Assembly (NCBI GenBank): GCA_903813345.2
Contig: CAIIXF020000002.1
Coordinates: forward strand, 31,304,926 to 31,368,925
DNA: 64,000 nt
DNA from: Owenia fusiformis
Taxonomy: Eukaryota; Annelida; Polychaeta; Sabellida; Oweniidae
Direction of reading: 5' to 3'
Shown one piece after another: positions 6,801 through 59,700 of this stretch. Under the pieces are notes generated by a model, which saw nothing but the letters and a program-made list of their open reading frames with translations, searched no databases and was not told where the DNA came from. How positions within the stretch are numbered: the stretch's first letter is position 1; the number at the start of each line of letters is the position of its first letter. A program made the translations under genes and the position numbers.

Positions 6801-9800
6801 AAGTTGGCTGTTATAGAACATACAATGTACATGTTGCACTGGACATTTAAATATTGTTTCTAAGAACTAAAATACAGAGTTGTAATTTAATTATTCTGAC
6901 ACCAAAAAATACCGGCTGTTGGTTTAAGTTACTTTTTTGGCCAACTCATTTAAAGATGAATAGAACCTGCCACTATTCCATTCATATTTAAATAAGTTGA
7001 CCATAAAATAATGGGTTAACCAGACAGCCCAGGGGCAGATCTGGGAACCAACAAGGGGAGCCAAATTTCAGGCCTGAGAAAAAACTTTGGGCCCCTAAAA
7101 CCAAACAGAGGGCCCAAATTTTGAGGCCCATTTTCTTCAAAATTTGGCCTAAAACTAAACATAAATAAGGCTTTAAAAGGTCTAGTAGACCAAAAGGCCC
7201 ACTTTTTGGGGCCTCGAGGCCCAATGGGTTTTTATGGGCCCACCCAAAGGGGGGGGGAGGGCCCCTGGATCCGCCAGTGCAGCCGACAGATGGTGGTTGT
7301 ATTTGTGAATGCTAGCTTAGACATGTTATCTATAGGTGCTGAAACTAATTACAAGAAATCCTAGTAAATGTCAATTACCTTTGAATATCTACTGCGGCCT
7401 TCGCTTCCTTCTGCCTCTTCACCTGCCCAAACTCCTCCACCTAGAATATAGTACCACCAATAAATTATTCCTATTCAAGTAGCATTTTTGGAGAATTGAT
7501 TTCAGAATTTACAGTGCAATAATCTAATGTTTAAACCTGTAAAATCAGCTGCATAATCTGTACTTGAAAACAATGTTTTTACTGATCTATATTCAGAGAT
7601 TATTAAAAAATATGAGAGCCTTAAAGACAGAATCAGATCTAGTGAGATAGGTAGGTTAATTGCACATGTTATTTACAAGTGCTTGCAATTTTGTCACTCC
7701 CTAGAGAGACGTTCCTATACAATTTAGAGTGTTAAATTATTCCTTGCATTTTAAAATACAGCATTAAGTTTACTTACAGGGTCTGGTATATGAGACACTT
7801 GTGCTATTGGTCTGCCAATACGTGCTAGATTACTCCCAGAGGCTTCAAACTCGTTGGGTTCACTCTTTATGGTATCTAAAGCTTCTAGGCTACTTGATGA
7901 GGATTGTGCTGTAGGTATACTGACAAATGATTCATCTGCTTGTGTTTCAGTAAAATTAACATGCGATTCAATGGGGCTATTTTCTTGAAAACTGGTGCTG
8001 CCTTTAGGGCTATTTTCCTGTGATTTAGGGCTATTTGCATGATGCTCAGTATCATCAGTTCTATCTGTATGAACAGTGTCTTGCTGAACATCTAGATCTA
8101 AACTAGTGTTATCTACTACTGGTGTCAGGTTAATACTAGCATTTACATCAGCTGTCTGATCTTCACAAGAATCAGCATCAGGAGTATTTTCAACTCTACG
8201 AGTATTTTCTACTCTGGAAGTATTTTCATCATCACCAGTGGTATTGTTTTTCACCTGTTTTTCATCCTCATTTGATATGGCACCAGAATAATTATGACCC
8301 AGCTTAGCTGTGTTATCATTGTTCTCAGGCACCCCATCATCATTGTTATTTGGCACATGGTCACCAATTGGCACATGTTCACTGTTTGGCACATTTTCAC
8401 TGTCACTTGGGTGTTTATCATATGTTTCATCCATGTTCATGAAATCATTTTCACCACCCTCGAAGTTATCCTCATCCTCATTCTTAAATGTCACTCTTCT
8501 GGACTTTTCATCAGATTCCCAGACGTATGATGTGAATGCAGGGTTTTCTATAACATTGTTTATATGTGCTGGGGAACGTTGCTTCATCTTATAGAATTTC
8601 CTCACAGTGATCGAGTCAGTGAGGTCCCCTGGTGGGTCATCCTGTTCTTCTGAATGAGGGTGGTACACTTCCCCAAACTTTCTACGAAGATCAACAACTG
8701 AAAATGAAGGAATGATATTTCAAGTTTAAATACGAACTAACTGTTACTAATTAGGTGGGTGGGTCAACTTTTAAAAGTACATTATTTGAAAGTTTAATAG
8801 CAAAACTAAACATGCATCATTTTTATCTGGAATATGTTAGTATTTTTCTTATAAAATATAATGTTGGATTTATAGCAATTTACTTAGATGTAATGGTGAA
8901 TCATGGTTCAGATTAAACAAATACAAATTAATTTATTAAAAAAGGATTAATAATGCTATCCTCAGTAGCTTAGAAAAAATTGTATTTTCGAACTTTTTGT
9001 ACTTTTTGAACCTTGTAAATGACCTTCATGTATTATAGTGAATGGACACCCACCTTTCTCCATATAATGTCTTGGACTTTTAATTGTCCTAGCATGGTGC
9101 TCTAGCTCAGGGGCAAATGCACTACCATGTCTTGGGGACCTGCCTCCGTATGGATTACTTGGACTAGGGATTGAGGGGCGAGTTCTTACAGGGGCAGATA
9201 GGACACGGGTTGGATGGTGTTGTTTACGATGTAACATCCTTTGCTGTTGTTGTATCGCCTTGTGATGTGCTTGAATGTGCTTATGATGTGACTCATCTCG
9301 AATATGATGTGCCGTTTTGGTTGGTGTCCCGCTGTAGGGTCTGGACCTGGCACTCCTGGGGGTAGGGGATATGGAAGGTGGGACACAACCATCGCAATAG
9401 TTCTCAGGAATTTGGACTGCTTTACTCCAATGCTCTCCTCTGATTCTCTTGGCAATGAGAAGCGATTGGTTAGGGTGCAGACCGAGCATTTTATCCTTCG
9501 AGATTTTATGAGCTTGAAAGTCAGGTGCAAAATTCCACAAAGGAGATTGCGATAATGTCTGCGAAGATTTTCCTTTTTTGGATCTAACAGGAAACATATC
9601 CTTGAAGTTAACACTATTCTTATTATCGCCCCCTGCCTCTTTTTCATTATCAACATTGTCATCACCTGTAGGATCATTTATATCAAAGTCAGCCACATTA
9701 TCATTTCCAGTTGATGGAAGTTCAAATGTTACTTCTTTCATTGATTTTTCTTCAGTGTTAGTGGTTTCTTTGCCATCATAAGAGAGTTCAGTGTTTGGAG

Positions 9801-15800: not shown

Positions 15801-18800
15801 TTTTGTTAATGGATTAATAAAGTTTCTTTAGACACTGTAATCAAGTGTTTCCCTTTTAATAAGTTATGTTTTTGGACTTAATTATTTAAGACGCATCCTG
15901 TAATAATATCTGATTGCATTTTCTCCATCAATAAATTTCTTTTTAGCCCGATCAAACCTATCAAATATAATGCATATATAAGGGTTATGTACTGGGAGGT
16001 TTTGGATACCCATATTTCCTGAGGGATAAACCCTTTATTTAAAACTGATCGTACATAACATGTGTATTCCATACCTTTTGAGGTTTCTAGATACATTCTA
16101 CCTTATTAAGTTCTAAAATCCAAAAACATTAAAGGTACACATTTTCTCAGTCTTAAAAATAAGTTTTTCATGAGATTTTCACTCATATTGCTTGAGCAAA
16201 TTAATTAATTGATATCAAAATTAAAATATATAACATGAACATAGAACCTCATAGAACCTCATTTGTTCGAGTATAGCAAAATCCATGGTATAGATGTCAA
16301 AGTCAGGAAGATGTTGTAATTCAAAATCTAAGTATATTTTTCAGTATAAATTTACACTTAAATATGCCCTTAAATTTCAGTATATTTTTCAGTACATATT
16401 TGCACTTAAAATCATACTTAAATTTCAGTATATTTTTAAGTACATATTTGCACTTAAAATCACACTTAAAATTCAGTATATTTTTCAGTATAAATATATA
16501 CTGAAAAATGTACTTAAAATTTCAGTCCATTTTTCAGTACATATTTATACCGAAATTTGCACTGAAATTTTAAGTATATTTTTCAGTACATATTTATACT
16601 GAAAAATATACTTAAAAATTCAGTACATTTTTCAGTACATATTTGTACTGAAAACGCTCCTTTCAGTACAAATGCTCTGCCCTAGTGATACAAATGCTAT
16701 TTTGGTCTAACAATCCACTGATTATCTGCAAAAATTATTTAGATTGAAACTTACATTTTTGAGTTTTTTCGTCCCATTGAGCATAATCGGAGAGGACTTC
16801 AAATGTGTAATGCTCTGGCCTAGTGGCATGGTCATGGGCAACATATCGTATACTATGTGGAGTTCCGCTCCTCCCAGCATGCTGCAGTTTAGCTATAACA
16901 CAGTTTATATAATGTATAGTCCTGGGTCTATCTAAATGCAGAACTCAACGAGGAAAATATGTTTTGAATTTAACATTTATTTTTATGACCTTTGTCTTCA
17001 GGGTAATGCAAACGAATAAATGCAATAGTTACATAATACCTAAAGATTAAATAAACTGCCTATAATTCACATATTTATTTGATAAATGAATACCCACCCA
17101 AAACCTCTTGTCCATGTGTCTATTTATTTACAGTAAATTAAAGACTTTTATCTTCCTAAAACCTCTTGTCCATGTGTCTATTATTTTCATTAAATTAAAG
17201 ACTTTTATCTACCTAAAACCTCTTGTCCATGTGTCTATTATTTACATTAAATCAAATACTTTTATCTACCTAAAACCTCTTGTCCATGTGTGGAGTAGCC
17301 CTTAAATGTTTCCCATTGTTGAAGTTTGCCATTCTTTACCTCAGCCGCAGATAAAGGTCGACTCCTTCCGCCCTCAGGGAGAGTTTCTTCAGGATCTTTA
17401 AATACAAGAATGACACATTCACATTGATAATTTTTTTTAATTTTTTTTTATTATACATAAATTTATTCCTTTAGTAAACGATAACAGACAATCAGACATG
17501 CAGTTGATTGCCAAAGTTTTTTATAAAAACATTAGCGGCAATTTTAGACAATATGAATAGGAATACAATAAAAAAATGTAATCTTATCACATTGATAATG
17601 AACGCCCAATTCTGGGAAAGGTTAACAAATTCAAAATGTATTGATAAGCAATAACATTAATTAATATTCAAAGGTTTGAACTTACAATTTGAATTTGAAA
17701 TATGTCAGTAAATGACCAAAGGGGAAAAACATTTTCTCAGTATACATGAATAGCAACCAAAAAGGTCAAACAACTCATATCATAAATATATCTTAAGTAA
17801 ATATAAAAAGTATGTAATTTCAAACTCAGAAATCAAGGTAGTATTGTTGACACATACTTACTTTCTGTCATCAATTTGTCATTCAATAAATGAACCACTG
17901 AATGATTGCATTAACAAAAATAAAAAATCAATCAATTAAATTCAGATACACCATAAACATGGACTTGAGAAAATGCCTAATAATATTGATATGTCAAGAT
18001 GGTTAAATTTAGGCATGAATTAATTATACGATTAAAATAGTTTGGGCAAAAACATTAGTGAAAACTCTATACTATAATGTCTCCTTATGTGCTGAAATGA
18101 CAATATAAGATACAATGCCTTACCTGGAGTAGAGCTTGGTATCTTTATGCTCATGGGAGTTGATCTTCCATCAGTTGACCTTCCATCAGTAGACCTTACA
18201 TCAGTTGAACCCCCTCCCTCCTGTTCTCCCATTTCCAGGGCTTCAGGGTTAGTATGAGGATTGATCAGGTGAGTTAATGGATATACAGTTTGTTTCATCT
18301 TTTGTATGGTCAAATCTTCAGGGTTAGGGGGGATGTCCGCTTCCTGGGGTAGCTGTAAAACAGTGGGCCATAAAGATGCTTCAGTCGCCATATTTATTTG
18401 TTCAGAAAACAAAGCAAGACAATCATTTAAGGTGAAGATGACAACTGAATACCAAAATAAATATAATAAAAATATCATAAAAAATATCATAAAAAATGAA
18501 GAGACTGTTTTCAAAATTCTTTGCTCATGATCATGCAGGGTTAAATTTGACTTTGTTGAAATGTCAACTCTCCTTCTATTCTGTATTCTACTTCATTCAA
18601 TCGTACTTGGGCATAATTTGAAATGACAATGACGACTCTGGAAATAATGTAATAGAAATAATGTATGAATATTTTACTTACCACTCCCATGTCTCCAAGT
18701 CTTCTAAGGCTACTACCAGGCCTTATGACACCACTACCAGGCCGTGATGCTATACCACCAGGCCTAGCACTAGTAGGCCTTGATGCTGCACTACTGGGCC

Positions 18801-29771: not shown

Positions 29772-30992
29772 TCATTTTTTAGCTGCAGATTTTTGTGGCG
29801 ACTTTTTCGAAGGTGAGGATCTGGGTTTCTTCCTTTTTCTTGGGGAGCCAGTTTTCTTACGCTGCTGCTTTTTCTCCCTTTTGGCCTTTGATGAGGATCT
29901 ACAGGTGAATGTGATGCACTGGAAAATAATTTGAATATTAAGTTATAATGGTAATGTTCTGAAATGCAAGAAACTTTGTTTATATGACTGTTACCATGGT
30001 AACTCTAACTGTACTATAAACGATATCTAACTGTATCTGAAGAAACATTTGAATTGATGAACTGCCATGAAAAAATGAATTTTATACTCTTTACATTCTT
30101 AAGGCATTTATTTTTTTATTTTACACTACTTATTTTATCATGTATGCCATCATGCAATTTGGTTAACTCTGATTGGTTGACAGTCAGCTCTCATTTCTAT
30201 AAATTATTCAATACCACGTGACTCTGCATACAGACTCACAGATGGATAGACAAAAAGAAAAGTGATCAATACATAGGCTTACCGGATTTTCTCGCATATA
30301 AGCCCTGGGCGTATAACTGAAAGAAAGGGTAATTTCGTCTGTTATTTTGCCTCTTATTTTTCGCCCATTGGCGTATAAGTGTACTACTTTCGATTTTTGG
30401 CCCAGTGGGTGTAAAGGTGAGAAGAGCTGATGAATACAATGGACTACCGTACCTACTGTTGTAGTCCTACCGCATGTTTTGTAAGAATTATAAAGGAAAT
30501 GTCACCTATAACCTTGGACTGTTGAAACAAAGTAACAACAGAACGATCCACCACTGCCACTAACGGCACAGCGTTGAACTTAATGTTGAAACAAAGTAAT
30601 GACAGAACGATCTGCCAGTGACAAAATACTCTTGAATTTATTGAAAAAATCAATAAATGGTCATTTTTTATAGGCCCATGGGCGTATAAGCGTACTACAT
30701 TCGATTTTTGGCCCATGGGCCTAAATTTAGGGGGGCGTATATGCGAGAAAATCCGGTAACATGGGAGACAAAAAGAAATAGTTACACTTCTCTCATTCGT
30801 ACATTGACAATAACTCACCTTTTCATCTAGAATTTCCATTAGTTTTTGTTTCCCACAGCGGATCCCAGCTGTAAGTAGTTCTGCTTGGAAGTCATCAAAA
30901 TCTATCGGCTCATAGTATAAAACTTTAAGATGTATACTCTCAGTTGATGTTATGTAATCATATATCTTCTGTTTTACGCCTGGAGTGGACAC
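29772..30992 (-). CDS. SLX4: Last two SLX4 exons: SLX1-binding C-terminal domain
   Basis: Exon 30992-30819 encodes VSTPGVKQKIYDYITSTESI onward to GIRCGKQKLMEILDEK, the helical conserved C-terminal domain through which SLX4 binds the nuclease SLX1. Exon 29918-29772 completes it with CITFTCRSSSKAKREKKQQR and a very basic tail ending KKSPQKSAAKK and a TGA stop. Vertebrate SLX4 likewise ends in a CITFT motif and a basic tail. The intron between them carries a 475-bp TA-flanked transposon (30282-30756). Confidence 0.93.
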
Positions 30993-33900
30993 CTGGAAGA
31001 TAAAACACCTATCATTCGATTGAAACTGTAATATTGGCAATATCATTCAAAGTCACATTTAAGAGAGTTACACTTATTTCCTATAACATTCATTTTAAAT
31101 GAGTGTTCATTTATTTAGTTGCTGACTGTTTCAAAGCAGGTATGGCATACTAGGCTAGCCTCAAAGTAACCATTTTTCAAAATGACTATTACATTTTAAA
31201 ACATGTGAGCTAACAAAGCATTAACAAGCGAAATTTCACTACCTGCCATTTATTAAAGACACCAAACTTTGAACACCAACTGCAAAACACCATCAACAAA
31301 AAAGTTGGAGACTATAACAATATGTCACCACTTAGGATGGTGACATAATTGAACTACACTGTTTACCTGTTGTGAAGCTGTCATTGGTTCCTCAACAATA
31401 GTTTCTTCTTGCATTGCATCATCACTGTCTGAGTTGGGATCATCATTGTCTCTTATATCATCATCATTGTCTGATGTGTCACTATCTGAGATGTCAAGAA
31501 GCCTCTTATTATTTACCCGAGCAACCAAAGGCTTGGCAGATGATGTCTTGGTGACCAAAGATTTGGTAGATGATGTCTTAGCGACCAAAGACTGGGCAGA
31601 TGATGTCTTGGCGACCAAAGATTTGGTAGATGATGTCTTAGCAACCAAAGAAGGCTTGGCAGAAGACGTCTTAGCAGCCAATGATTTAGCAATCAATGGC
31701 TTGGTAGATGATGTCTTAGCAACCAATGGCTTGGCAGATGATGTCTTAGCAACCAATGGCTTGGTAGATGATGTCTTAGCAAACGATGGCTTAGCAGATG
31801 ATGTCTTAGTAACTAAAGGTTTCACTTTTAAGGAAGATGTTATATCTGAACTTGATTTGGGTCCTTGAGGTTTTAAAGATTCTTTCACCGAAAGCTTCGC
31901 AGACACTGATTTTGACTTAGCTCCAGTTTCTTTATTTGAAGTTGATTCATTAGTCAAGCCTGGTGCATTAGTTCCTGTAAAGCTAGCATCACATTCAGAA
32001 TCAGTTTCATATTGATGAGTCTCCTGATAGATGTTTTTCAGTACCATTATCATCTTCTTTTTGGGCAGCATTCTTACACCATGTTTGGCTATCTCTCTCT
32101 AGAAAAAAAACAGTACAACGGTTAATTTAGTTGAACATTTGTGACTGGATTTAACTCAGATTAACAATTATGCACTAAATAGTTGTTACACATTGTTATA
32201 TTCTTTATCTTCTTTAAAATACCTGTATTTGATATCTGAAACAATTTGTTACACTATTGTAGCATTATGCAATGATTTAACAAGTAGTCTTACATTGATT
32301 TCAAACTCTTACTGTCAACACAATAGATACGTGGATGTTGAGTTTTGACAATTTTTGGGCAAATTCTGTTTTCAGCTACAAAATGGAGGGGTTGAGCATA
32401 GGAATACAAAATTCAATAAATAATTTAAAAAACTAAGGGTAGATTGACTTGGAATTCTAAAACATGCAATAGACACCTTCATATATTGGGCAATATTGGT
32501 TACCATGGCAACAAATGTATGATGTACATTCATTGTATTTACTACAAAATTAAGTTACCTTAACAGCTGGAGTTGCCATGGCGTCATAGTCAGGCATGGG
32601 AGTAAATGGGGAAGGAGGGACCCATGATTTACTTGCTCTGGGCTTAGGAACATTGGGTGTCTTTAGTGGCTCAGTAGAACTTCCATCCTGTTCAGGGAAA
32701 GTGTCATCTGGAACAATATTATTATCACATATAACATCAATATTATTTGGTGAAAATATTAGCCATGTGATTGTATCAATTGTATATTTATATATTGACT
32801 GCTTTATCATGTTTTTATGTAAGTCTTACATTGCATATAACATCTGGCTCAGTTGATCTGGCCCCTCCATCACTACATATTACCTTGCCTAGAACAGGGA
32901 ACATGATCTTATGAAAATACTAGGTGAGTTTATTTTCAAAGGCCTGCTCTTAAGGTACACTTAATTTGGCTCTCATTTTAAAAATGGCAGATTTGGTGGA
33001 TTAAAATTAGAGATCTGCCAATTCTCAGATCTATTTTGGAAAATCCCTAAATCACTGAAACTGAATTTCACTTGTGTAAGTATTTCGATGACAGAATTTA
33101 CTGTTATTAGTAGTACATACAAATCTCATTTCAAGATCAATGATAAAATGATAAAACTAAGCTTTAGTCCTGAATCCGCCAAATTAGATAGCCACCAATA
33201 TTTGAAATTAAGCAATTCTGCCAAATTAAGTAGCTTCAAATCAAGTAGATCTACGGTAATTAAATGTGTTCCTTTTAAATGAGTCTAGGTAATTAAAAGA
33301 TTTTAATCACTTTGTTCAGATGGAACAGCATTAACAGCAGTATTTGTCTCATCCTGAGTGTTTCTAAATGATGGTTCATTTTCATCCCTCCAGAGTGCGC
33401 TGTCATTGACCAAATAGTCAAGGTCATCTGGTGAGACTTCTTTGTCATCGTTGTGTGGAATCTGCTCATCATTGTTTATCAATTGCTCATCATTGTCTAA
33501 ATCCTCAGGGATAATTGACTTAGGTGAGTTATTCCCATGATCTTTGTCAACCCCTGCAACTCCAGCGTGCTCATTATATTTAGCTTCATTTCTCTTATTG
33601 AATGTTTGTGAAGTCATAATGTCATTACTGTTGTTCATGTCAATGTATCCACCACCATCATCAAAATCATCCCAGACATCCATTTCATCAGCTTGATCAT
33701 CAGTAACTGATCCAACAGGACTATTATTTAAGTCTCCCGTACCATCATTTGGTGTAGATTCATTAGGACCATCATTTGGGGTAGATTCATTTGGGTCTTC
33801 ATTTGGGATATATTCATCTGGGTCCTTATTATTGGTAGATTCATTTGGAATATCGTTTGAGGTAGATTCACTTGGGCCATCATTTGGGGTTGATTCATCT

Positions 33901-36900
33901 GGGTTGTCGTTAATGGTAGATTCATTTGGACCATCATTTGAGTTGGATTGACTTGGACAATCATTTGTATTAGATTTATCTGGACCATCATTTGGGTTCG
34001 ACTGACTTGGGCCATCAATTGGGGAAGATTCATTTGAGGTAGATACATTTGGAACATCATTTTTGTTATACTGATTTGGGCCATTATTTGATGTAGATTC
34101 ATCTGGAGTAGGATCATAAATAGCTGTTGCAGGATTTGTGTCATTACCACGTGAAGAACCACTTAAATTATTTGATTCTAATACATTAGGAAGGTCACTT
34201 TCATCAAACTCATTAGGGTTTTCACAAATGATCATATCAATGCAATCATTGTCTGTATTCTTGATGGGTGAGGTTATTACTTCTCCACTGATAGAAACAC
34301 TAGTTTTGGATTTCTTTTCTTGCGACAGAGCCTCTGGTTCTATATCAGAGATATCAAGCTCAATTCTCTTCCTTTTATTGCTTTTAGCTCTTGTTAATCC
34401 AGATTTCTCAATTTCTTCATGACCTCTAAAATGACTCTGTGAAATTCCCAAGTTATCAACCATTGGATGTTCAAAACATGCGGCTATTTTCGAGGATGGT
34501 ACATTACCAGATACATCACCTGATTTAGTCTTTATGTCAATATCAGGAAGGTCAAGAACATCATTATTAGAAGGGTCAACGTCATTTGAACCTATTGATT
34601 TGTCAGAAACTTCTGAAATGTCATGAGCTATTTTAGCAATATGCTTGTCAGCATATTTAACATTCTCATCCTGAGAGTCATACACTATGCAAATATCTTC
34701 TGTTGATTCCTCTTGCTGATGATTAACTGAATATGTCTTTCTCTCCTCTGAAGTTTCATTTTGTACATGTTGTTCACAATTGACTAGGGTTTCTTGGGAG
34801 CTTTTTGAACCTGAGATGGTTTCAACTTCCAAGGGCTTTGTTAGGAATTCATTATATTCTTTAGAGTGTTCAGTACAATCTTTTGGGGATACTGGCTCAT
34901 TGTGTTCAGAATCAGAACCAAACATGTCTTCATCAGATTTGTATATCACATCAGGATCATCACTCTGATGTTCATCAACAATCTCCAAGAGTTCTTGTTC
35001 CTTATCAGAGATGTCTATAATGCTGTCTTTAGAGAATGGTTCTTGAACACTTAAAGTCCTATTGTTGTTTTGTGATTCTTTATCACCTTCATCTATCTCT
35101 ACAATTTCCAGAATCTCAACAGTGGCCTCATGTTCAGTGTTATCAAGGTCACCAGATTCACTACTATCATTGTTTGGTCTTGCATTTCCAGCAGTCCATT
35201 CATTCAATGTGTTATCATTTATAGATCCAGACTTAATTCTTTTCTTAGTTTTGATGTAAGGAGTCGGGGCAAATAAATCAGGAGTTTCTAATCCAATGAT
35301 TGGATATGTATTAGTGTTCCTTGGTGTTTTGAATTGAACTTTATTCCTAGCAGTCTGGTCGATCGGAGTGCTCGTAGCACACACCTTCCAATTACTTGAA
35401 TTATCTCCATGCCTTGTTTTAGCGAGAGGGGTTTTAAAGGATGGTGGTGTATTATTCGTAAGCTGTATTTCTTGAGAGGTTGAAAATTTCAATGGGGACT
35501 TCACTTTCTTAATTTTGCTTTTCTGGGTTGCCATGAAACTATACAGATCATCCATCTCTTCATCAATATCACTGTTGCTATGGTTACTAGAAGTTTCTCT
35601 GTTTCCATGACAACCTGCTTGATTTCTATCATCTTCATCTTCCCAGATGCTTTTCAAAAGTGTTTCTAGATTCCCATCATTGTTAGTTTCTAGATCCTCA
35701 TTGCTGTCATTTAGATTTTGTTCTACACTGTGATTGGGTAAATTAGCTATATCAGGGTCAACATCAGGAGTTTGAACACTAAATGGTATACAATCTGGAC
35801 TTTGTTGATAAACTGAACTTTGTTTATATTCTGGACTTTGATGATAATCTGAACCTTGTTTATATTCTGGACTTTGTTGACTAAAACTTGTTAAATTCTG
35901 GCCAGGCCGACTTATTGAAACTCTAAATGGATTCCTCCATTTATTGCTTTGAGTCACAGGAGTTCCTAGGCCAGGATGTAACATCTGTGAGTCTGAAGTG
36001 GCATCCCTGCTGAGGCTACAGTCTGTCATAGGGGGGTCCAGACTCTGCTTCAAGGAACGGTTAGACTGAGAGGTATCTCTTGCACAGATTGACACCTCAG
36101 AGCCTATATGCTGACTTGAGGTGGAGTGTCTTGTGCTTTCAAGATGTGAATTCTGGGTAATGTTTTCTGCTGCTAACTCAGCTAGGACCAAGGCAGTCTG
36201 GGATTGAGAACCTCCAGTGGGTGTATTTACATGAGAAGGCTCCTGAAAATAGAATATGTAATCAAACTAAAGATTTATCAACATTTTCATTTTGTATTAG
36301 GTCATTTGAGTCTATGGCTTGCATCTGTATTGACAATATCCAGTAATTTGAACAAGTTCCAGTCCAGTTGATGGATTGAACATTTTAATTGTAAACATGG
36401 TGGTAAATCAAAATTATATTATTACAGACAAATACAAGGAATTCATTACAAAAGTGGTGCATACGATTTTGGACGGAGGAAATCATGAATTTTTTTGCAG
36501 GATCCATAAAATATTTAAAAAACATCTTTTACCAGTCGTACAAAGTTCTAAATCTGTGTTTGATGAGAAAAAACGATTTTATACTTCTGATTTTCAGGGG
36601 TGTAAAATCTCAAAAATTACAAAAAAACATTTCTCCTTAATTTGGTGAATTTTTTACTGCTACAAACTAAATGAGCTATATTTCAAGTTCATGAGTTATT
36701 TTGATGAGATCTGCCCAAAGGAAATATGGATTTAACCCTTTTATGTCCAAACATGTACATTCTAATCATATATCTGAAATGGATTCTCCAAACTTTGTAA
36801 CCATGTTTTATTCTGAAATAATTATGGAATATTAGATTGATTAGATCTCCCTCCATTTACTTAATATGTACATGATAAGCAAGAGCCGCTGACAAACATT

Positions 36901-39900
36901 CAGTTTAATTGTGGGGAGACCACAAGTAGACCAGAGAGAATAGACATCACACTTACACAATCAGAGTTGCCTTGCACAGAAGAGATTCGTCGACCAGGTA
37001 TCTGAGAAAGGTGTTTCATCTTGGATCCGGTGGTTATGTCACATGGTTCTATGACATCACAAAGAGATGCAACATAGAAGTCCTCCTTTGCCTTATCTGC
37101 TTCAGTAAATTTAGACATTTGCCACAGCGTAGACTCCTGAAGGAAAAACAGTTAACTGTTCATTAGTCCTTAATTTTCCTTGAATCTTGTAGACAAGCAG
37201 ATTCGAATAATTGGAAGATGCACTCAAGATTCTATAGTAGCCAAGACCAGTTCATAAGTTTGTGCAAGGATACTCTAAAAATTTTGTTTCTGAGTCTGGC
37301 TGAAATTTTGACTCAGTATACCTCCACTATTCATACATTGGAATCCTAAATTACAAGGAATGGATTCATAAAGAAAAAAGTTACACCTCTTTTTTCACGA
37401 TAAGTTTTCCAATTCTCAATAATTATTTCATGAAATTTTCACCTGATAAACTTTGAAGCATTTCTAACATACAAACTCCTTTTCACTAAATTACCATAAA
37501 TTTTACCTTATCAAACTGAGCTGTAAGGTCCCTTGGCTCAGCATTATCAGGTCTGTAGAACAGACTCTCTGGTAGTCTTGGCGTCAATTCATTTACTTCC
37601 ACATCGAGCTGAAATATGCATATATGTGTGTTTAATTTGAGAATGAGCAGTCTGTTTTGACTTTGATGCTTCTCAAAATATTGAAAATACAGAGACTAAA
37701 TGTTTATGATGTCAGATGATGGTATGAAGTATGGCCAGAATTGATAAAGGTAAATCAGTAGACAAAATGAACTGAGGTGACATCTATAAATCAGACTACA
37801 TAACATTTTTACATTTGCCTGCATACATTTGCAACTGCTGAGAACTTATTCTTTGAACGCAGTGGCCTTCATTCCACTCTAGTAATACAAACTTAAGTCT
37901 TATTCATAATTCTAAATCATAATCAGTTCTTTCTATTTACTGTTTGGTTGGTGACTATGGCAGCTCTACTGGCAACTATTTCTTCATTTTCCTCCCTTGT
38001 ACGCTTCAAGAGTTCGGGGATAACTTCAGTTTTCCTGCAATGAACAGAACTTACATGTTTCTTAATTCAATAGATCAAAGACACAAGTTCATGAGTTTGC
38101 AAAACTTGAGGCTTTATTTTATTATCGAGTTGATAGCGAATTAGCTTAGTTCATAATTTTCATAAAGTACAATTGTGAACAATGAACACATCAACATTGT
38201 CAGAGTGAAATATATGGCCCTTAAAAAATATTCAAATAGTCATATGAAAAAATGGATTAGACATTTTCAGACCATCAAGAACTTACTTTTTTCGTTTGCC
38301 TTTCTTTACAGGACTCTGGTCCTTGGCATTCTTCATCAGCACATCAAACACTGAAGTGTTAGCATTTTCCATATTAGGAGTGGAAAATTCCATTGGAGTG
38401 GAAAATTCCGATGCAGATACTGACAAGGCAATGGCTAGTTGTGTTTGTTCTTCAAGAACACTGGAAAATAGATTGAACAATAGTAATGATGGGCGTATTC
38501 CAGGGACTACTATACATGATAATGAACTCACATTAAATAATAGAGTTTTTAGTAAATATATCTATCACAAAGAAAGTTTCAACATCATCTCTAGACATCC
38601 AATTTTTTATTGCAGACTATCTTGAACTCTTAAGATAAGCAGGGATTAAGGTCAATTCTGTACCTTTTTGGTTCAGCCTTTTTGTGTTTTGAAGCTGCAG
38701 TCTTTGGCTTTGTAGTCTTTAGCAGTTTCTGGACATCTTTTTCACTAAAATAATACTCAACATAAAGTATGTCCTAATGTAGAAATTCAGCCTAAGTACA
38801 ACAGATTTAAAGGATTTGCTCATATGCTGTTGGTTAAGGGTTGGTTTGTTAAAAATCCAATAGAAAAATGTCACCACCTGCCATTTGTTGCAGACAACGG
38901 AAACCAGGTACCAACTGCCAAACACCATCCCCAAAAGTTGGAAATCATAACAACATGCCACCACTTTTGGTGGTGACCAAACAAGTCTGCAAAGGTGTTG
39001 ATTCCATTTAGAAAAATAAAGCAGCATTATAGAGGAGAATGTGTCACATCCAAGATGGTTTGATATCCTGGATGGTCACATGATCAAAACTGTCCAATCA
39101 GATACGGATATATGGAAAACTTACTCAATAATTAATTGTCCCTGGTCGAGCTTCACCTTGTGCTCCTCTTCCTGCTCTCTGGCAAGCTTCAGGGCACGAT
39201 CGACGGGAACATCATACTGCAGCGCACATTTCTTCAAGTGTAACTTCCTAGCCTAGATACATACATACAAAACATATCAACATCAGCGCCTGTCTAATAT
39301 GATCTAACCAGAACAACGGCAAAGCCAAAGCGTAGCGAATCCCATCGAACAGAAATGGCTGGCATTTTTACAAACGAAATATATAGCAAATATCATAAAA
39401 TAACACACATAAGAAAGGCCACCATTTTCAAAATGGTTGCTCACTAGCCAAGTTGTCATCAGAAGAAGTAATATGCTTTTAAGTAGCCACATATGAAATT
39501 TTCAAAAATCGCACACACGTACATGTAAATGGTGGCCATTTTTTTAAAATGGCCGCCTTCTACCCAAAATATCATAAGACAGTATGCAATCCTTACGAGT
39601 ATTCACATTTCAAATATAAACAAAATCGCTCTATAACTTCTTGAGTTATCATAAAAATGTAAATTAACACACATAAAAATGGTGGCCAAAATGGCCGCAT
39701 ACTATCCAAATTTTATTAGACATTGTGCCATGCTTAAAGTATTCACATACCAAATATTAACAAAATCGCTCCACTACTTTTCCAGTTACAGCAAAAATCG
39801 TTAAATGACGTGCGAAGGCAGCCATTTTTCAAGATGGCTGCCATGTATTTCTTCTATATTTACATTTCTAGCTTAAACAATGTTCTATATAACTTGTTAC

Positions 39901-42900
39901 ATTTAAAACATATTGCTATTACAGTTTTATATGCACCTAAATTACTGTAAAATCGGCACTAAAATGGCCGCCATTTTTAAATGAGTGGCCATTTTGAAAA
40001 TTGGCTTTCGAGCAGAACTTCTATCCCCATAGGGTATATGTGTACAAAATATGAACAAAATCGGGCCAACGGTATTTGAGTTATTGCCCGGACGGACAGA
40101 CGGACGGACGGACGTCATTTGTTGTTGCTGCATTGGTTTCTTCATTCATTTTCTTCTTTCTTTGTCTTGATTTGATTGCGATGTTACTTATCTTTCTTCA
40201 GGGTCCACAGACTTGAGACTGCGCATAGGTGGGTTAAACGTTTTGATCCGGCCGGAAAACTCTCCCCTTCCCCTTAATGTTGGTCTTATGCTGATTTGTC
40301 ATCTTAGTTTACCCTCTTTGCGGAGAAGATACTGTTTCATATTCATTTGTTAATGTTCTCTTCTCTCATTAATTTTCCAGTCCTTCATGATGATATTCTC
40401 CTGCATATTGTATTTAGTACATATCCATTTATTTCTTGTTATAGCTTTCTTAGTATACGAATTTAGTATGTTGCTCCTGTAGCCTTGACATTGTAGTTTA
40501 TTTCCCAGGCTGGTAACTCTGTTTGTTGCATCTTCCAGTTGACTGCAGATTCTTGAAATCCTTATTATTTGTGATATAAATATTCCATAAGATTGGTTTC
40601 TAGGAATATTTCCAGATAGATCAGGATATGAGACTATTTGGAAATTGAAGTTTTCCCTTTTGTCGTATAGTTTTGTAGTGATTTGTTTATTTACTATTTT
40701 CATTTGTATGTCCAGAAAAGTTGTTTCTGTATCCTTCTCATTTTCCTTGTTTAACACTAGTTCTTCAGGATAGATGTTCTTCATATCAGTCTCCATTTCT
40801 CCGTCGTTGTTTATAGTACATAAATCATCGATGAATCTTGTAGTTTTAGCATATTTTAGTACTTTGGAGTAGTCTTCCCTATACATTTTCTCAATGGCTT
40901 GAAATTCATAACTGTATAAGTATAGGTTTGCCATATATGGCGCCGGATCGATTCCCATCGGTATTCCAATTTTCTGTCTTAGAATTGATTTCCCTGCTTT
41001 AAAGTAGGCTGTATCCACGATGAAATCCACTAGATCATTGCACTCTCCTTTGGTATATGCCTTTTTATTATCCGCCTTTCCACCCCATTTGGCTTCATCT
41101 CCACCTACTGTTATCTTTTGGTTAGTTCCTCCTCTGAAGGCTTTATCTATCACCCATTTCAGTTTTTCCTTTATGTCAGTTAGATTAATCTTTGTGTACA
41201 GACGGAGGCGTTCCCTATATCCCTCCGAACTTCGTTCGATGGGATAATTACTGAAGTGTAGCATTTTTTTTATACTATTTATCATAGCATGGTATTTCTA
41301 TATATTTTAGAGTGACAATATGTTCACTTTTCTGCTTGGTAACCTGACACTGTAACTGAAACTAATACGAACTCACATTATATACTTTACCCAACTTTTA
41401 AGCTGCCCCCCCCTCCCGTAATAGGTATAAACCTGTAATACACATACCCTATCTGTCTTGTGTGGCTGGCCACATATTGGGCAAGGCAATACAGATGTCC
41501 GCATTTTATTCACCACCTTTTCCTTAGCCTCTTTGTATCTCTCCCCTTCTTCTATCTGCAAATACAACACAGATTTGTTTTATATGCCCAGCAAATACAT
41601 TGTACAGAACCATACAAACTTCCAAAAAGTGCAAAGATCCAAAAATATTACAAAAAATGGAATGCAACACAAACCATTAAGAGCATAACGAGCCATACAC
41701 CACTAAAGCAGGGACTTTTGAAGTCATTACAATGCATATAGAGGACAAGGCAAATTCTGCTGACATCAAAATTGTTGTAGATCATAATTAAAACTCAGTA
41801 TTTATGACAATCATCTACATTTATCTCAAACATAGTAGACAAGAGAAAAAATCTACGTATAAGGCCACACACAATTAGTAGGACAGTTCTGATATTAGCA
41901 TTTACTAGGCTATAAGTTAATAATCCAAAGAAACGCTTAGATCTGTCAATACCTGATCCAAACAGCGATTAAGATGTTGTTGGCGTCTCCTTGAATTCCA
42001 ACTTGTGAGATCTTTGTTACAAAACTGGCAGAGAAACAACTGGTTTTCCTCTTTTCTTGGACCTGCAAATCATTTTTGGGAGTTTTTAAAATATATTTGT
42101 GCTCACTAAGTCAGCATGTAATGAAGATAGTTTGCTCAATAATATCATCACAAGGCATTAACATGACAAAATGTCACCACCTAAAACAATTTGGTCAATT
42201 TAAAGCAAGTTGGAAAATACTTTTTGACCTTAAGAAGAACTTCTGAGAACATGTAGATGATTTTGAAAAAAAAATTAGTCAATTTGAAGCAAGTTGAAAA
42301 AAGACCTTTTTGACCTTGAGAAGGTCATTGAAGGTCAAAGGTCAAATCTAAAGTCAGATTTGAACTTCTGAGAACTTGTAAAGTCAAATTTGAACTTCTG
42401 AAAAGATGTAGATGATTTTGAAAAAAAAAATTGGTCAATTTGAAGCAAGTTGAAAACAGACCTTTTTGACCTTTTTTGACCTTGAGAAGGTCATTAAAGG
42501 TCAAATGTCAAATTTAAAGTCAGATATGAATTTCTGAGAACATGTAGATGATTTTGAAAAAAAAATTAGTCAATTTGAAGCAAGTTGAAAAAAGACCTTT
42601 TTGACCTTTTTTGACCTTTTTTGACCTTTAGAAGGTCATTGAAGGTCAAATGTCAAATCTAAAGTCAGAATTTCTGAGAACATGTAGATGATTTTGAAAA
42701 AAAATTCAGTCAATTTGAAGCAAGTTGAAAAAGACCTTTTTGACCTTTTTTGACTTTGAGAAGGTCATTGAAGGTCAAATGTCAAATCTTAAGTCAAATC
42801 TACAGTCAGATTTGAATTTCTGAGAACACGTAGATGATTTTGAAATTTTTTTTTAGTCAATTTGAAGCAAGTTGAAAACAGACCTTTTTGACCTTTTTTG

Positions 42901-44421
42901 ACCTTGAGAAGGTCATTGAAGGTCAAATGTCAAATCTTAAGTCAGATTTGAATTTCTGAGAACACATAGATGATTTTGAAAAACAAATTTAGTCAATTTG
43001 AAGCAAGTTGAAAACAGACCTTTTTGACCTTTTTTGACCTTGAGAAGGTCATTGAAGGTCAAATGTCAAATCTAAAGTCAGATTTGAACTTCTGAGAACA
43101 TGTAGATGATTTAGAAAAAAATTGAAGTCAGTCTAAACAGTATTTGTTAAGTTATATGAAGTTGTAAGAAATTGTTACAGACGCCGGACGCCGGACGCCA
43201 ACCTCCAACCACCAACCGCCGTCGCAAAAAACGGAGACCATAACAATATGTCACCACTTTTGGTGGTGACATAATTAAAATCAAGCCCAAACTCAACGTT
43301 AAAGAAAAACTAATGTGATAGCATAAAACAGTTTGTTTAAATAAGAATTCAAAAATAGGACTGAGGATTGGTTTATTAATATTATGTCAAACGCTTAAAC
43401 AATCCGTTTCCATCTTTAGAGATTAAAGGGGCCAGTGGCTGCAATTATTACAAGACTTGGACTTACTTGTCTTTGTTTCATGTTTAGTATCAAGCTGCAT
43501 GTCCAATTTTGTTCTTCTGAAGTTATCTTGCAGACACTTCAGAATATGATCGCCATGTTCTATGGTGTTGATGTTTTTACCACAAGTAGTACACTGTTTA
43601 GTTACTTCAACTCCCTCAGTTACTTCTTCATGTTTGTCAGAATCATCTTGGGCACCAGCGCCACTTGAAGTCGTGTTGTCATCAAAAGCTTTCATATCAT
43701 CCTCAGCTTCAGTATTGTCAATATCAAGTGTTTCCTTCTTTGACTTATCATCTTTTGATTGCTTGTTTTTCCTTACCTCTGTAGCTCTTTTGTTCGATTT
43801 CCTAATTTTGGGTTTTGAACTGTTCTCTTTTGTTTTGATGTCATTTGACCTAGTTTTATGATCATCCTCCTCCGCTTTACGGTCATTCCCATTCCCATTT
43901 GTTATACTCTTTTTTCCTTTACAATCATTCTCCTTTGTTTTACAATCATTCTCCTTTGTTTTAAAATCAGTCTCCCTTGTTTTACAACCAGTCGCCCTTG
44001 TTTTACAATCAGTCTCCCTTGTTTTAAAATCAGTCTCTCTTGTTTTACAATCAGTCTCCCTTGTTTTACAATCAGTCTCATTTGCTTTACCATCATTAAC
44101 CTTATCATTTGGGCAAATTTCCTGAGATTGAGAAATATCACTCTCATTTTGACAACTTGTATTGGTTGTTCTATTCGTGCCACGTCCTTTTCTCAACCTG
44201 AGTTTGCTTTTTCGAGGAATTTGCTTAAAATCCACGCTGTCATTATGTTCAGTGGTTTGATCACTGAATATACCTTGAAAAAGCTCAAGATGTGAAATTT
44301 TAGCAGATTTTTTCTTATTTAACGTCAACTTTGCATTTTGTACAGCTTTCTTAGCTTTTATTTCTTGTGGACTTTGTCCCGGTTTCACTTTGGGTGATTT
44401 CATCTTTTTATTCAAAATCAT
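29772..44421 (-). CDS. SLX4: SLX4 structure-specific endonuclease scaffold (14 exons, ~2,021 aa)
   Basis: SLX4 is the nuclear scaffold that binds SLX1, XPF-ERCC1 and MUS81-EME1 in crosslink repair and Holliday-junction resolution. Exons: 44421-43467, 42062-41953, 41555-41448, 39252-39125, 38744-38664, 38460-38287, 38034-37941, 37608-37507, 37136-36957, 36242-33311, 32707-32559, 32098-31367, 30992-30819, 29918-29772; total 6,066 nt with every phase agreeing. Evidence: UBZ4-type finger CQFCNKDLTSWNSRRRQQHLNRCLD; a second finger CPICGQPHKTDR/ARKLHLKKC; a UIM-like EEQTQLAIALSVS; the conserved PPSPFTPMPDYDAMATPAVK then REIAKHGVRMLPKKKMIMVL (SAP-like); and the SLX1-binding domain ending EILDEKCITFT with a Lys/Arg-rich tail. 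Unusual: no BTB domain seen, and three in-frame minisatellites. The donor ending the 2.9-kb exon (AAA|gtgatt) is weak and inferred from phase. AATAAA lies at 29701-29706, downstream of the stop. Confidence 0.93.
30282..30756. mobile_element. TA-flanked DNA element (475 bp) in the last SLX4 intron
   Basis: Ends CCGGATTTTCTCGCATATAA and inverse TATATGCGAGAAAATCCGG, flanked by TA. Inside are two copies of a block with GGGCGTATAAG and TGGCCCA and a duplicated aacaaagtaa-gacagaacgatc segment. Tc1/mariner/pogo-like by ends. Confidence 0.7.
31213..31348. mobile_element. Short hairpin-ended repeat in SLX4 intron
   Basis: CAAAGCATTAACAAGCG start, CTGCCATTTATTAAAGACAC middle, GTCACCACTTAGGATGGTGAC hairpin end. 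The hairpin loop differs from other copies while both arms are kept. Confidence 0.55.
31367..32707 (-). CDS. SLX4: SLX4 exons with SAP-like region and a 10-residue repeat
   Basis: Exon 32707-32559 ends TPMPDYDAMATPAVK and exon 32098-31367 begins REIAKHGVRMLPKKKMIMVL followed by KNIYQETHQY. Together they form the conserved block just upstream of the SLX1-binding domain in SLX4 proteins. After it come about 11 copies of a 10-residue repeat of the type KTSSAKPLVA (about 31510-31815), then an acidic Asp/Ser run. The repeat is Lys/Ser/Thr-rich and probably disordered. Confidence 0.9.
33311..36242 (-). CDS. SLX4: 2.9-kb SLX4 exon, mostly disordered, with a 9-residue repeat
   Basis: A single open frame of 977 codons starting EPSHVNTPTGG and highly acidic, rich in Ser/Asn/Asp. 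Around 33735-34060 there are about 12 copies of a 9-residue repeat of the type NESTPNDGP. Near the end is MDVWDDFDDGGGYIDMN, a Trp/Asp motif like the WDD-type segment of SLX4 proteins. No BTB domain is seen here, although vertebrate SLX4 has one between the zinc fingers and the C-terminal part. The open frame reaches a stop at 33303, so the true exon end must lie at or before the gtgatt at 33305-33310. Confidence 0.85.
38860..38979. mobile_element. Short hairpin-ended repeat in SLX4 intron
   Basis: Carries ATGTCACCACCTGCCATTTG near its left edge and the CCACCACTTTTGGTGGTG hairpin at the right. The left boundary is uncertain. Confidence 0.5.
39311..40140. mobile_element. Dispersed repeat (CGCCAAAGCGTAGC family), copy 2, with GGAC microsatellite tail
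   Basis: Opens CAACGGCAAAGCCAAAGCG and shares most of its length with 25961-26440, plus extra AATGGTGGCCATTTT blocks. It ends in a GGACGGAC tract (40088-40115) and GTTGTTGCTGCATTGG. A microsatellite just inside the right end is the same layout seen at 1477-2787 and 42151-43273. Confidence 0.6.
40350..41285 (-). mobile_element. Reverse transcriptase ORF of a Penelope-like retroelement (5'-truncated)
   Basis: A 311-codon open frame with RT palm motifs: IGIPMGIDPAPYMANLYLY (GxPMG), then RFIDDLCTIN, the catalytic D-D pair in an F-I-D-D setting, then TTFLDIQM and TKLYDKRENFNFQIVSYP. The FLDI motif and overall pattern resemble Penelope-like RTs found across animal genomes. The N-terminal part of the RT and any GIY-YIG endonuclease are not visible. 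It lies sense to SLX4, within the intron that splits a zinc finger. Confidence 0.7.
42151..43273. mobile_element. Helentron-like element with internal ~115-130-bp minisatellite
   Basis: Begins CAAGGCATTAACATGACAAA then ATGTCACCACC and ends with the GTCACCACTTTTGGTGGTGAC hairpin and ATAA. About eight tandem units fill it, each with TTGACC runs, GAAGGTCAAATGTCAAATC and TTCTGAGAACATGTAGATGA. A GACGCCGGACGCC microsatellite (about 43170) precedes the hairpin. Its ends match the short copies, so the minisatellite probably expanded inside such an element. It lies in SLX4 intron 1. Confidence 0.6.
43467..44421 (-). CDS. SLX4: SLX4 first coding exon with a 7-residue repeat and a first C2HC finger
   Basis: Starts MILNKKMKSPKVKPG and is Lys-rich. 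About nine copies of a 7-residue repeat (TDCKTRE, with TDFKTRE and NDCKTKE variants) lie at roughly 43910-44085. Near the 3' end CTTCGKNINTIEHGDHILKC makes a C2HC pattern like a UBZ4 finger. It ends at ACAA|gtaagt. The start is the first ATG of the frame; I cannot exclude a further upstream exon. Confidence 0.8.
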
Positions 44422-56700: not shown

Positions 56701-59700
56701 TTGTATTAGGTAAATAGAAGCTGATCACTCAACCTCATTAGTAGTCAATCGAGGGCAGTTAAATATGGTTTAAAAGGAGTCTGACCAATGAGATCCTAGA
56801 GTAAAACAAACAAATCATCTGATTGTGCACTGGTTTTAACGTGCACCAATCAGATGGTTTGTTTGTTTTACGGATAAAAAAGTTGTCCAGTGATACCAGT
56901 TTGATTGAAAATCAAACAACGAGCATGGTAGACCTCACGCCCAACGCATTTTTACCCAAAGCCGATATGTGATGCCTTTTTTAAAATTACCAGATTGTTT
57001 TGATCAAGCTCCCCATTTTTAAACTTTCAGACGAAGTTAAACGTGTAGGTTTTTTAATGGTCCATGTACCGAATGTCGAAATAATTCTTCCCTCCCTTTG
57101 TGGACACAAACTGAATAAGAGATCTGAAGGGTCTGACAAATTACTAAACTTTAGATGTTTCCAGCCATGTATGGAGCCTGCACGATGTCTGATAATTGGG
57201 GCTGCCGTAGAGAAGGCAAATACGGCCTCATTCCCCCTATTATGTCCGGTAGGATACGAACGAAGGGAAGATTTGCTTTCAAATATGGACGCCTGGAGGT
57301 TGTGGCCAAAATGCCCGTTGGTGATTGGATGTGGCCAGGTTTGTGAAGAACTATCAATGGCATCCTATAGAATCATTACACGCTATGCATGGTGTAATCT
57401 AAACAAACACTAGAGCTGAACGGCTATTTATGTGAGAAAGCTACATGTATTTGTATATGCATCACGTCTTTATAACAATATGGATGAACTTCCGTCGGAA
57501 GAAATTCTTTTTTTCATCATTTTCACCATGAACGAGATCGATTTGTATCCAAATATTTTACCCGTATGTTGATAGTAACATCCGGTTACTGAAAGGCGAA
57601 TCAGGCACGAATATCCAAGGGCCCCGATAATCGGGTGATTTCTCCCTTCAGCAACAAGGACATCTATACGTAACCGAGCAATTATGCAATTCACCAGATA
57701 ATGTCCTGGTACCCAGCGTGCAGAGTCTAGTTAAACTACAGTTAAACTGAAGACGAAGCTCTCTTTTAAGAAGTGAAGTCAAACGAATGCAAAGGGTAAT
57801 GTCCTGGTCACTGAAGTGAGGAATATTCTCATTTGATTATTAGAGCTGCTGGATATATTTGCTAGGGTCTAAATAACCAACCTTTCAGTGACGGCGGGAT
57901 GTTACGATTAACATACGGGTAAAAGATACAAATTGACCTCTTACCTGGTGAAAATGAAAATTTTCTCCTACGGAAGTTCATCCATTTTGTTAACAGGTTG
58001 GGAACAGTGATATGGGCGATTGAAACGTATACGTTGTCGTTTCGTTTTTATATACAAGCTTAAACTCTCTATTACTTAACTCTAATTTGACCATCAAACT
58101 TTGTTTTTATTGTTTTAGTCAATGTTGTTTGATAATTCCAGCAATTTGGTTATTACCCGAAGGTAACATTTACGGCGGGTGGCCAAGATCTGGGGAAATA
58201 GACCTCGTAGAAACAAGAGGTAATGTAACAGAAAATATTTCCATCGAGCTTCTTTTGTTTATCCCAGAATGAATTAACTTAGGCTACATTTACATTCTAA
58301 AATCTTACTCCTCCTATGTACTAGGTGAATACGATTAGGCTAGAGACTTAAAAATGTTAAAACCAATCTTGAAAAAAAATCATGCTAAATGTTTTCTAGT
58401 ATATAATCCTTATTTTATTTTCTCAAAAGATATTTGAGATATATGCTCAAATAAAAAATTATCGAAGAGTTGAGACGCTCAAACGTCAAAATTCAATTGC
58501 AATTTGGGATGATCTATAAAGGAACAAAATTAAAGAATCTTGAAATAAAGTCGAATTTATGAGACTTTCCGAAACAATGCAAGACATTGAAGGATGAGCG
58601 CAAAAAGTTTGTAAAAATGTGTCAACTTTTCTTTATCCCTGCCCTAGAGATCGAATCGCATATTTGTAGGCCTCATTTGCTCCCATTTTACCAACAGGCA
58701 ATCGTGACCTTAAGTACACTGAAAGCGGAAATTACGCTGGTATACAAGACATTGGGTCAACGTTACACTGGGGGCCTGTCTGGAATGTCAATCACTACCA
58801 CCTCACTACTGGACACCAGTAAGTATACGATCAAAGTGCTTCTAGTGAGTTAAAAATCAATGTACTCTTGAACGAGCGTAGTTAAAAATGAGTGTAAAAT
58901 CAAAGCATATTCTACGTATGTTTTATCATATGAGTAAGGTATAGGCCTAGTCTAGTAAGTATACGATCAAAGTGCATTCTAGTGATTCAAAAATCAAAGT
59001 GTATTCTCATGAGTGTCGAATCAAAGTGTATTCTTGCGAGTGTAAGATCAAATTGCATTCTAGTGAGTGTAAATCAAAGTATATCCTAGGGGATGTAAGA
59101 TCAAATTGCATTCTAGTGAGTGTAAAATCAAAGTGTATTTTAGGGAATGTAAGTTCAAATTGCATTCTACTGAGTGTAAATCAGAGTGTATTTTAGGGGA
59201 TGTAAGATCAAATTGCATTCTAGTGAGTGTAAAATCAAAGTGTATTTTAGGGAATGTAAGATCAAATTGCATTCTAGTGAGTGTAAAATCAAAGTGTATT
59301 TTAGGGAATGTAAGATCAAATTGCATTCTAGTGAGTGTAAAATCAAAGTGTATTTTAGGGAATGTAAGATCAAATTGCATTCTAGTGAGTGTAAATCAAA
59401 GTGTATTTTAGGGAATGTACAATCAAATTGCATTCTAATGAGTGTAAGATGAAAGTGCTTTTTAGTAAGTGCATGTTAGTATTAGGTCAACGTTTATTCT
59501 ACAAGAGTAGTGAGAGTAAAACCAAAGTCTCTAGTAAAAATCAGAGTGTATTCCACTGAGTGTAAAATCAGAGTGTATTCTTCAAAGTATAAAATCATAG
59601 TGTATATGAGATCAAATATTATCATAAGATCAAATTGTATTATCGTGAGTATAATCGTGTAAGTGTAACACTATAATTTGTTTATTAGAATTTCGATGAA

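Follow-up and report, generated by a model that had tools for sequence, protein, structure and literature searches.

Several minisatellites lie in frame within one gene of a 64,000-nucleotide stretch of Owenia fusiformis DNA (hereafter the window), and the gene encodes the DNA-repair scaffold SLX4. Does such an accumulation reflect selection on the repeats, or is it what a repeat-rich genome yields in a protein that tolerates them? Summarizing, the observation itself is confirmed and extended, its significance is much reduced, and one structural lead is left.

The SLX4 gene model

Joining exons, we obtained a gene model on the minus strand (44403-29772) with 14 coding exons and 2,015 residues (Table 1). 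All introns are GT-AG with consistent phases, start and stop codons are present and internal stops are absent. A second in-frame ATG lies 18 bases upstream of the start ATG at 44403. By eye, the weakest donor is that of exon 10 (GTGATT), yet it is in phase with exon 11. Two introns hold features of their own: intron 1 a tandem array of 4.7 copies of 136 bp (42466-43119; period indivisible by three), and intron 3 a 315-residue open reading frame (ORF) on the same strand (40350-41297), which resembles a reverse transcriptase (PF00078, E 0.005, below the cut-off).

Table 1 Coding exons, zinc-finger patterns and tandem arrays of the SLX4 model (positions of the window)
Feature	Positions	Strand	Details
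Exon 1	44403-43467	-	Includes A1 and zinc-finger pattern 1 (C-x2-C...H-x3-C)
Exon 2	42062-41953	-	
Exon 3	41555-41448	-	
Exon 4	39252-39125	-	
Exon 5	38744-38664	-	
Exon 6	38460-38287	-	
Exon 7	38034-37941	-	
Exon 8	37608-37507	-	
Exon 9	37136-36957	-	
Exon 10	36242-33311	-	2,932 bp; arrays A4 and A2, majority of SIM-like motifs
Exon 11	32707-32559	-	
Exon 12	32098-31367	-	SAP domain part, then array A3, then acidic stretch with SIM-like motif (residue 1865)
Exon 13	30992-30819	-	Exons 13-14 (29772-30992): CCD and basic tail
Exon 14	29918-29772	-	Exons 13-14: CCD (PF09494) and basic tail
Zinc-finger pattern 1	43534-43593	-	Residues 271-290
Zinc-finger pattern 2	41962-42030	-	Residues 324-346
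Zinc-finger pattern 3	41448-41483 and 39226-39252	-	Residues 374-394, across exon junction
Array A1	43918-44095	-	TRF period 21, 8.5 copies, 89% matches
Array A2	33723-34115	-	27-bp / 9-residue unit NDGPNESTP, 13 units, residues 1349-1478
Array A3	31517-31825	-	30-bp / 10-residue unit KTSSAKPLVA, 9 units, residues 1757-1859
Array A4	about 35793-35885	-	18/36-bp unit (6/12 residues, QSPEYK type), residues 758-788, best TRF score 154

The identification of the gene as SLX4 in the original prediction is borne out by matches to the conserved C-terminal domain (CCD), the SAP domain and the third zinc-finger pattern. The CCD, through which known SLX4 proteins bind SLX1, is recognised by Pfam (PF09494, E 1.7e-14, above the cut-off); a phmmer query with the CCD alone matched none of the PDB chains at E up to 1. 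With SAP and CCD joined in one query, the SAP stretch matches the SLX4-named PDB chains 7tuj (E 3.9e-14) and 7bu5 (E 1.2e-13), and the Pfam SAP models gave no match in the protein. Three C-x2-C...H-x3-C zinc-finger patterns are found in the model, the third of which aligns with the SLX4-named chain 9qed (E 0.0002); no zinc-finger Pfam model exceeds its own cut-off in the protein. A stretch like the XPF-binding MLR of human SLX4, F598-Y599-x3-L603, is spaced like the human residues F545, Y546 and L550 (named in parts of PMC8599992), with a leucine at -16 against -15 in human (L530). This stretch has no Pfam match, and a PDB search with it gave no SLX4 chain. The BTB domain, which is described for human SLX4 and lies outside the minimal SAP plus CCD architecture, was not found by Pfam in residues 1-1140, 1141-1625 and 1627-2015, nor at the SLX4 locus in a genome scan, among the 150 of 196 candidates scored.

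Four unrelated in-frame arrays

Three arrays with units of 7, 9 and 10 residues had been predicted in the gene, and Tandem Repeats Finder (TRF) recovers all of them at most about 25 bases from their predicted positions. In addition, it reveals a fourth in-frame array (A4) absent from that prediction; all arrays follow the reading frame of the SLX4 model. The A1 consensus is RETDCKT, a 7-residue unit with eight clear copies at residues 108-163, within a region (residues 106-199) that carries diverged units up to about residue 199. A2 is reported by TRF at 33741-34036 (period 27, also 81; 11 copies, 71% matches) and has a net charge of -24 over its residues 1349-1478. A3 appears as two TRF stretches (31520-31675 and 31686-31813, period 30), the first with a 60-bp higher order; position 5 of the unit alternates strictly between Ala and Thr over the nine units, consistent with the 60-bp higher unit. 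Its 103 residues (1757-1859) have a net charge of +20 and include no acidic residue.

The arrays are not due to chance, since the real coding sequence (12 TRF rows, top score 281) lies far above 100 shuffles of its codon order (mean of 0.03 rows, top score 57). They are also unrelated to each other, as had been proposed: none of the six array pairs is clearly above codon-shuffled controls, and even the similarity of the closest pair (A1-A4) is matched by 14 of 200 shuffles. A common origin of the four arrays is not supported. An origin of A1, A2 and A3 from a dispersed element is rejected, as each matches only its own place in the 498-Mb genome of 525 contigs (in a search that skips very common words).

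These single matches also bear on the reading that the arrays are an artefact of assembly or splicing. Assembly errors have been reported to result from tandem repeats (PMC6868369). Nonetheless, the locus lies within a 35.75-Mb contig of the 525-contig assembly, the window contains no N, units within each array differ among themselves, and the arrays are situated inside open exons of the model. Together these points make an artefact hardly credible.

The arrays lie between the recognised modules, which agrees with the prediction for the SLX4 domains that we found. This is weak evidence for a preference for linkers, because most of the protein lies outside any recognised module. Within open-licence PMC, no paper on SLX4 repeats was found by title.

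Genome background and reading frame

To put the arrays in perspective, we used as baseline 25 random 10-kb loci (250 kb) from contigs C1-C5, within the first 30 Mb. These loci hold 89 arrays, which cover on average 10.9% of the bases (median 8.1%). Coverage is 9.0% for the window, 8.5% for the window outside the SLX4 coding sequence and 14.3% for the SLX4 coding sequence itself. Among the 14 non-overlapping ORFs of at least 250 residues in the random loci (19.2 kb), three hold five arrays with a period divisible by three, and one further array, of period 16, lies inside a satellite-like ORF. At this rate 1.6 arrays are predicted for SLX4 against four observed (five when counted as TRF clusters), with P 0.076 (0.022 for clusters). 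After dropping three random ORFs (two satellite-like and one reverse transcriptase-like, as judged by eye) P becomes 0.16 (0.06), and a comparison to the overall array density gives P 0.17 (0.07); all of these values flatter SLX4, which was picked for having arrays.

The SLX4 array count is thus not clearly above background. Given the small baseline (250 kb, 14 ORFs), a real but modest enrichment is possible, as the four arrays (five clusters) exceed the expected 1.6-2.2 by a factor of 2-3. Several of the random ORFs look by eye like membrane proteins, which may tolerate repeats poorly, and with a baseline from disordered exons alone the excess might be lower still. The idea of several expansions within a single gene holds as far as their independence in sequence is concerned, but is far less striking given the repeat load of the genome.

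Counting arrays with a best period of at least 6, the period is divisible by three in 12 of 13 arrays within ORFs of at least 250 residues, against 45 of 108 elsewhere (Fisher P 0.0005). The tendency persists without SLX4 (7 of 8 arrays, P 0.015).

Other repeats were seen in the window and the random loci. The window ORF at 7754-8719, which has a low-complexity look and which no Pfam model matches at E up to 10, includes in-frame 18-bp arrays at 8182-8228 (RVENT type) and 8349-8403 (SEHVPN type), and the ORF at 18035-18592 an in-frame 15-bp array at 18158-18208. A long tandem array of 27/54/107 bp, with about 19 units of 27 bp, occupies 58951-59471. One random locus (L025, 794-3070) contains two ORFs of 438 and 320 residues that by eye are largely short tandem repeat. 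These frames are a warning that a long ORF in this genome need not be a gene.

Constraint on the unit sequence

Changes between units were counted on minimum spanning trees, for which the neutral synonymous fraction is about 0.18-0.33. The ratios of synonymous to nonsynonymous changes are 1:8 for A1, 10:26 for A2, 7:7 for A3 and 0:9 for A4. In no full array is the synonymous excess significant (the smallest P, 0.08-0.14, is for A3); the nine-unit core of A2 gives 11:17, with P 0.02-0.12 depending on the transition rate. Pairwise pN/pS values (bootstrap medians, from unit pairs that are not independent) are 2.0 for A1, 0.66 for A2, 0.43 for A3 and 4.3 for A4; the A3 value, a hint of constraint, has a column bootstrap range of 0.21-0.70 and comes from a count in which one A3 unit is misaligned. 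Strong purifying selection on the A3 units, considered as a candidate, is not upheld by the event counts on the corrected alignment. Overall, the reading frame is protected, whereas constraint on the unit sequence is at most weak.

Regulatory motifs and possible structured segments

The arrays might matter for what their units contain. It had been suggested that Ser/Thr-rich repeats could multiply SUMO, ubiquitin or kinase sites, and more broadly the arrays could multiply regulatory motifs: A1 would contribute KEN boxes, A2 polo-box-type S[ST]P, A3 basic Ser/Thr sites and A4 Ser-Pro. For the patterns tested (SIM, SUMO, kinase and KEN), multiplication of SUMO or SIM sites is rejected, as none of the 13 SIM-core matches and neither of the two SUMO-acceptor motifs falls in an array. 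Nine of the SIM-core matches precede A2 (residues 1013-1200), and another, at 1865, lies just past A3. As to the other motifs, A2 does hold four of the nine Ser-[Ser/Thr]-Pro motifs of the protein, A4 has three Ser-Pro, all three KEN motifs are in the A1 region, and an interaction with PLK1 is described for human SLX4 (in passages of PMC8599992). However, the proline of the A2 motif is present in just 5 of 13 units, which is amplification without visible upkeep. KEN occurs in two of the eight clear A1 units (the third is in the diverged tail), the arrays are without SIM, SUMO-acceptor or full CDK motif, and any repeated unit multiplies the motifs that it contains. We therefore regard motif multiplication as very unlikely to account for the arrays.

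Another possibility is that A3 forms a basic segment resembling the tail of histone H1, which would hold DNA or acidic neighbours beside the SAP domain and be selected for its charge, not for its exact sequence. The strong positive charge described above suits such a role, as do KTSS (identical in all nine units), the pairwise pN/pS of 0.43 and a weak Pfam hit of H1-like type (E 0.0036); moreover, the SAP domain of S. cerevisiae Slx4 binds DNA (according to parts of PMC8599992). Against it, the event counts (7:7) are not significant and the H1-like match, at 17.9 bits, is far under the cut-off of 40. An extensin-like model, also far under its cut-off, fits this stretch better (E 0.00022), so that both hits are to be taken as matches to low complexity. 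On balance, a basic tail of this kind seems unlikely, if somewhat less so than motif multiplication. The AF2 model of exon 12 has low confidence (mean pLDDT 50.9); its SAP part contains two helices, and the strands that it places in A3 look spurious. A beta-solenoid in A3 is rejected: repeating strands at block pLDDT of about 42-58 are a known false pattern of AF2 for repeats (described in a portion of PMC11795689).

The most interesting lead of the analysis is a helix in A1. Run without an alignment, AF2 predicts a single 57-residue helix at residues 107-163, coinciding with the eight clear units. Within exon 1, pLDDT peaks at 83-92 in the blocks for residues 111-160; the model of this exon is otherwise poor (mean pLDDT 57.5; further helices at 12-47 and 283-310). 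A1 may thus form a helix instead of a loose linker. It could act as a rod in which each 7-residue unit would add about 1 nm, or some two helical turns, and would leave the face nearly unchanged; copy number would then determine stepwise how far the ubiquitin-binding zinc fingers are from the N-terminus. The charge pattern is favourable: there are 13 acidic-to-basic pairs at i+4 (3.4 in residue shuffles), 12 basic-to-acidic pairs at i+3 and no like-charge pair at i+4, and none of 2000 residue shuffles reaches the i+4 or the i+3 count. When the seven columns of the unit are permuted in every way, the acidic-to-basic i+4 count is reached by 144 of 5,040 orders, the two favourable counts together by 192 and the i+4 count without an adverse i+4 pair by 72, though 1,176 orders equal or exceed A1 when opposite-charge pairs of any kind are counted.

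Other properties argue against the rod. Only 29 of the 57 residues are charged (32 with Asn), whereas in predicted single alpha-helices charged residues or Asn/Gln occupy about 80% of the heptad positions (from part of PMC5812594); the composition of A1 is poor for such a helix. Mean helix propensity is moderate (0.51 against 0.63 for the whole protein, where lower is better), and the units have no synonymous excess (1:8). A1 has no basic-to-acidic i+4 pair, which is top-ranked for Glu-Lys in PMC5347031; PMC5347031 and PMC5812594 disagree on which orientation stabilises most. Finally, AF2 can give confident false structures for repeats, sometimes swapping solenoid and helix (as reported in sections of PMC11795689). 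A rod that sets spacing in this way would be decidedly unlikely, slightly more so than the basic tail. Still more improbable than any of these three readings, we consider, is a broader version, in which A1 would be a length-adjustable helical ruler, slippage would shift the reach of the zinc fingers, and A2 and A3 would change linker charge and reach elsewhere. If true, replication slippage would alter zinc-finger reach in 1-nm steps with the face of the rod unturned.

Interpretation

Taken together, the gene is probably an ordinary animal SLX4 scaffold within a minisatellite-rich genome, and a high rate of repeat birth, a frame filter and tolerant linkers probably explain the arrays. Short tandem repeats would be born frequently here, and coding DNA would retain mostly the ones whose unit length is divisible by three. 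They would persist where there is no fold to break, in the long linkers that separate zinc fingers, MLR, SAP and CCD. All four arrays would then have separate histories of local duplication. Their main effect would be an altered length and charge of the linkers that tether the SLX4 binding modules (mixed and possibly helical for A1, acidic for A2 and basic for A3), and such tuning would be a by-product of frequent minisatellite birth meeting tolerant linkers.

We infer that retention of the arrays is neutral or nearly neutral, as well as their effect on linker length. That linker length is free to change, one of the options put forward in the original prediction, is in keeping with the frame filter, with units that show no clear constraint and with published variability: SLX4 is predominantly disordered and its SAP-CCD linker, where A3 is located, varies in length between organisms (according to excerpts of PMC8599992). 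Free turnover as a general rule is argued against by human proteins, in which most tandem repeats are old and conserved and none shows strong recent duplication or deletion (as stated in part of PMC3995336). The analysis offers a useful correction, in that minisatellites in a repair scaffold look selected until the repeat load of the genome is measured. In addition, a single protein here combines four arrays of differing charge, and perhaps of differing structure, which makes it a clear test case for the importance of linker length.

Comparison with known systems

Like other in-frame coding minisatellites of disordered regions, the arrays have periods divisible by three, short polar units, an open frame and an origin by local duplication; the one difference seen is that four of them occur in a single DNA-repair scaffold.

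With human SLX4 the gene shares SAP and CCD (by sequence or profile match), C2HC patterns ahead of an MLR-like stretch, SIM-like motifs ahead of SAP and long stretches without Pfam match. It differs by its four tandem arrays in linkers and by three C2HC patterns, where human SLX4 is described with two UBZ4 (in parts of PMC8599992); BTB is part of the human protein and has no match here.

Compared to single alpha-helix domains, including designed 7-residue repeats (as presented in part of PMC5347031), A1 has in common the heptad unit and opposite charges at i+3/i+4, and it is predicted as a lone helix. In contrast to these domains, A1 is far poorer in charged residues and holds many Thr and Cys.
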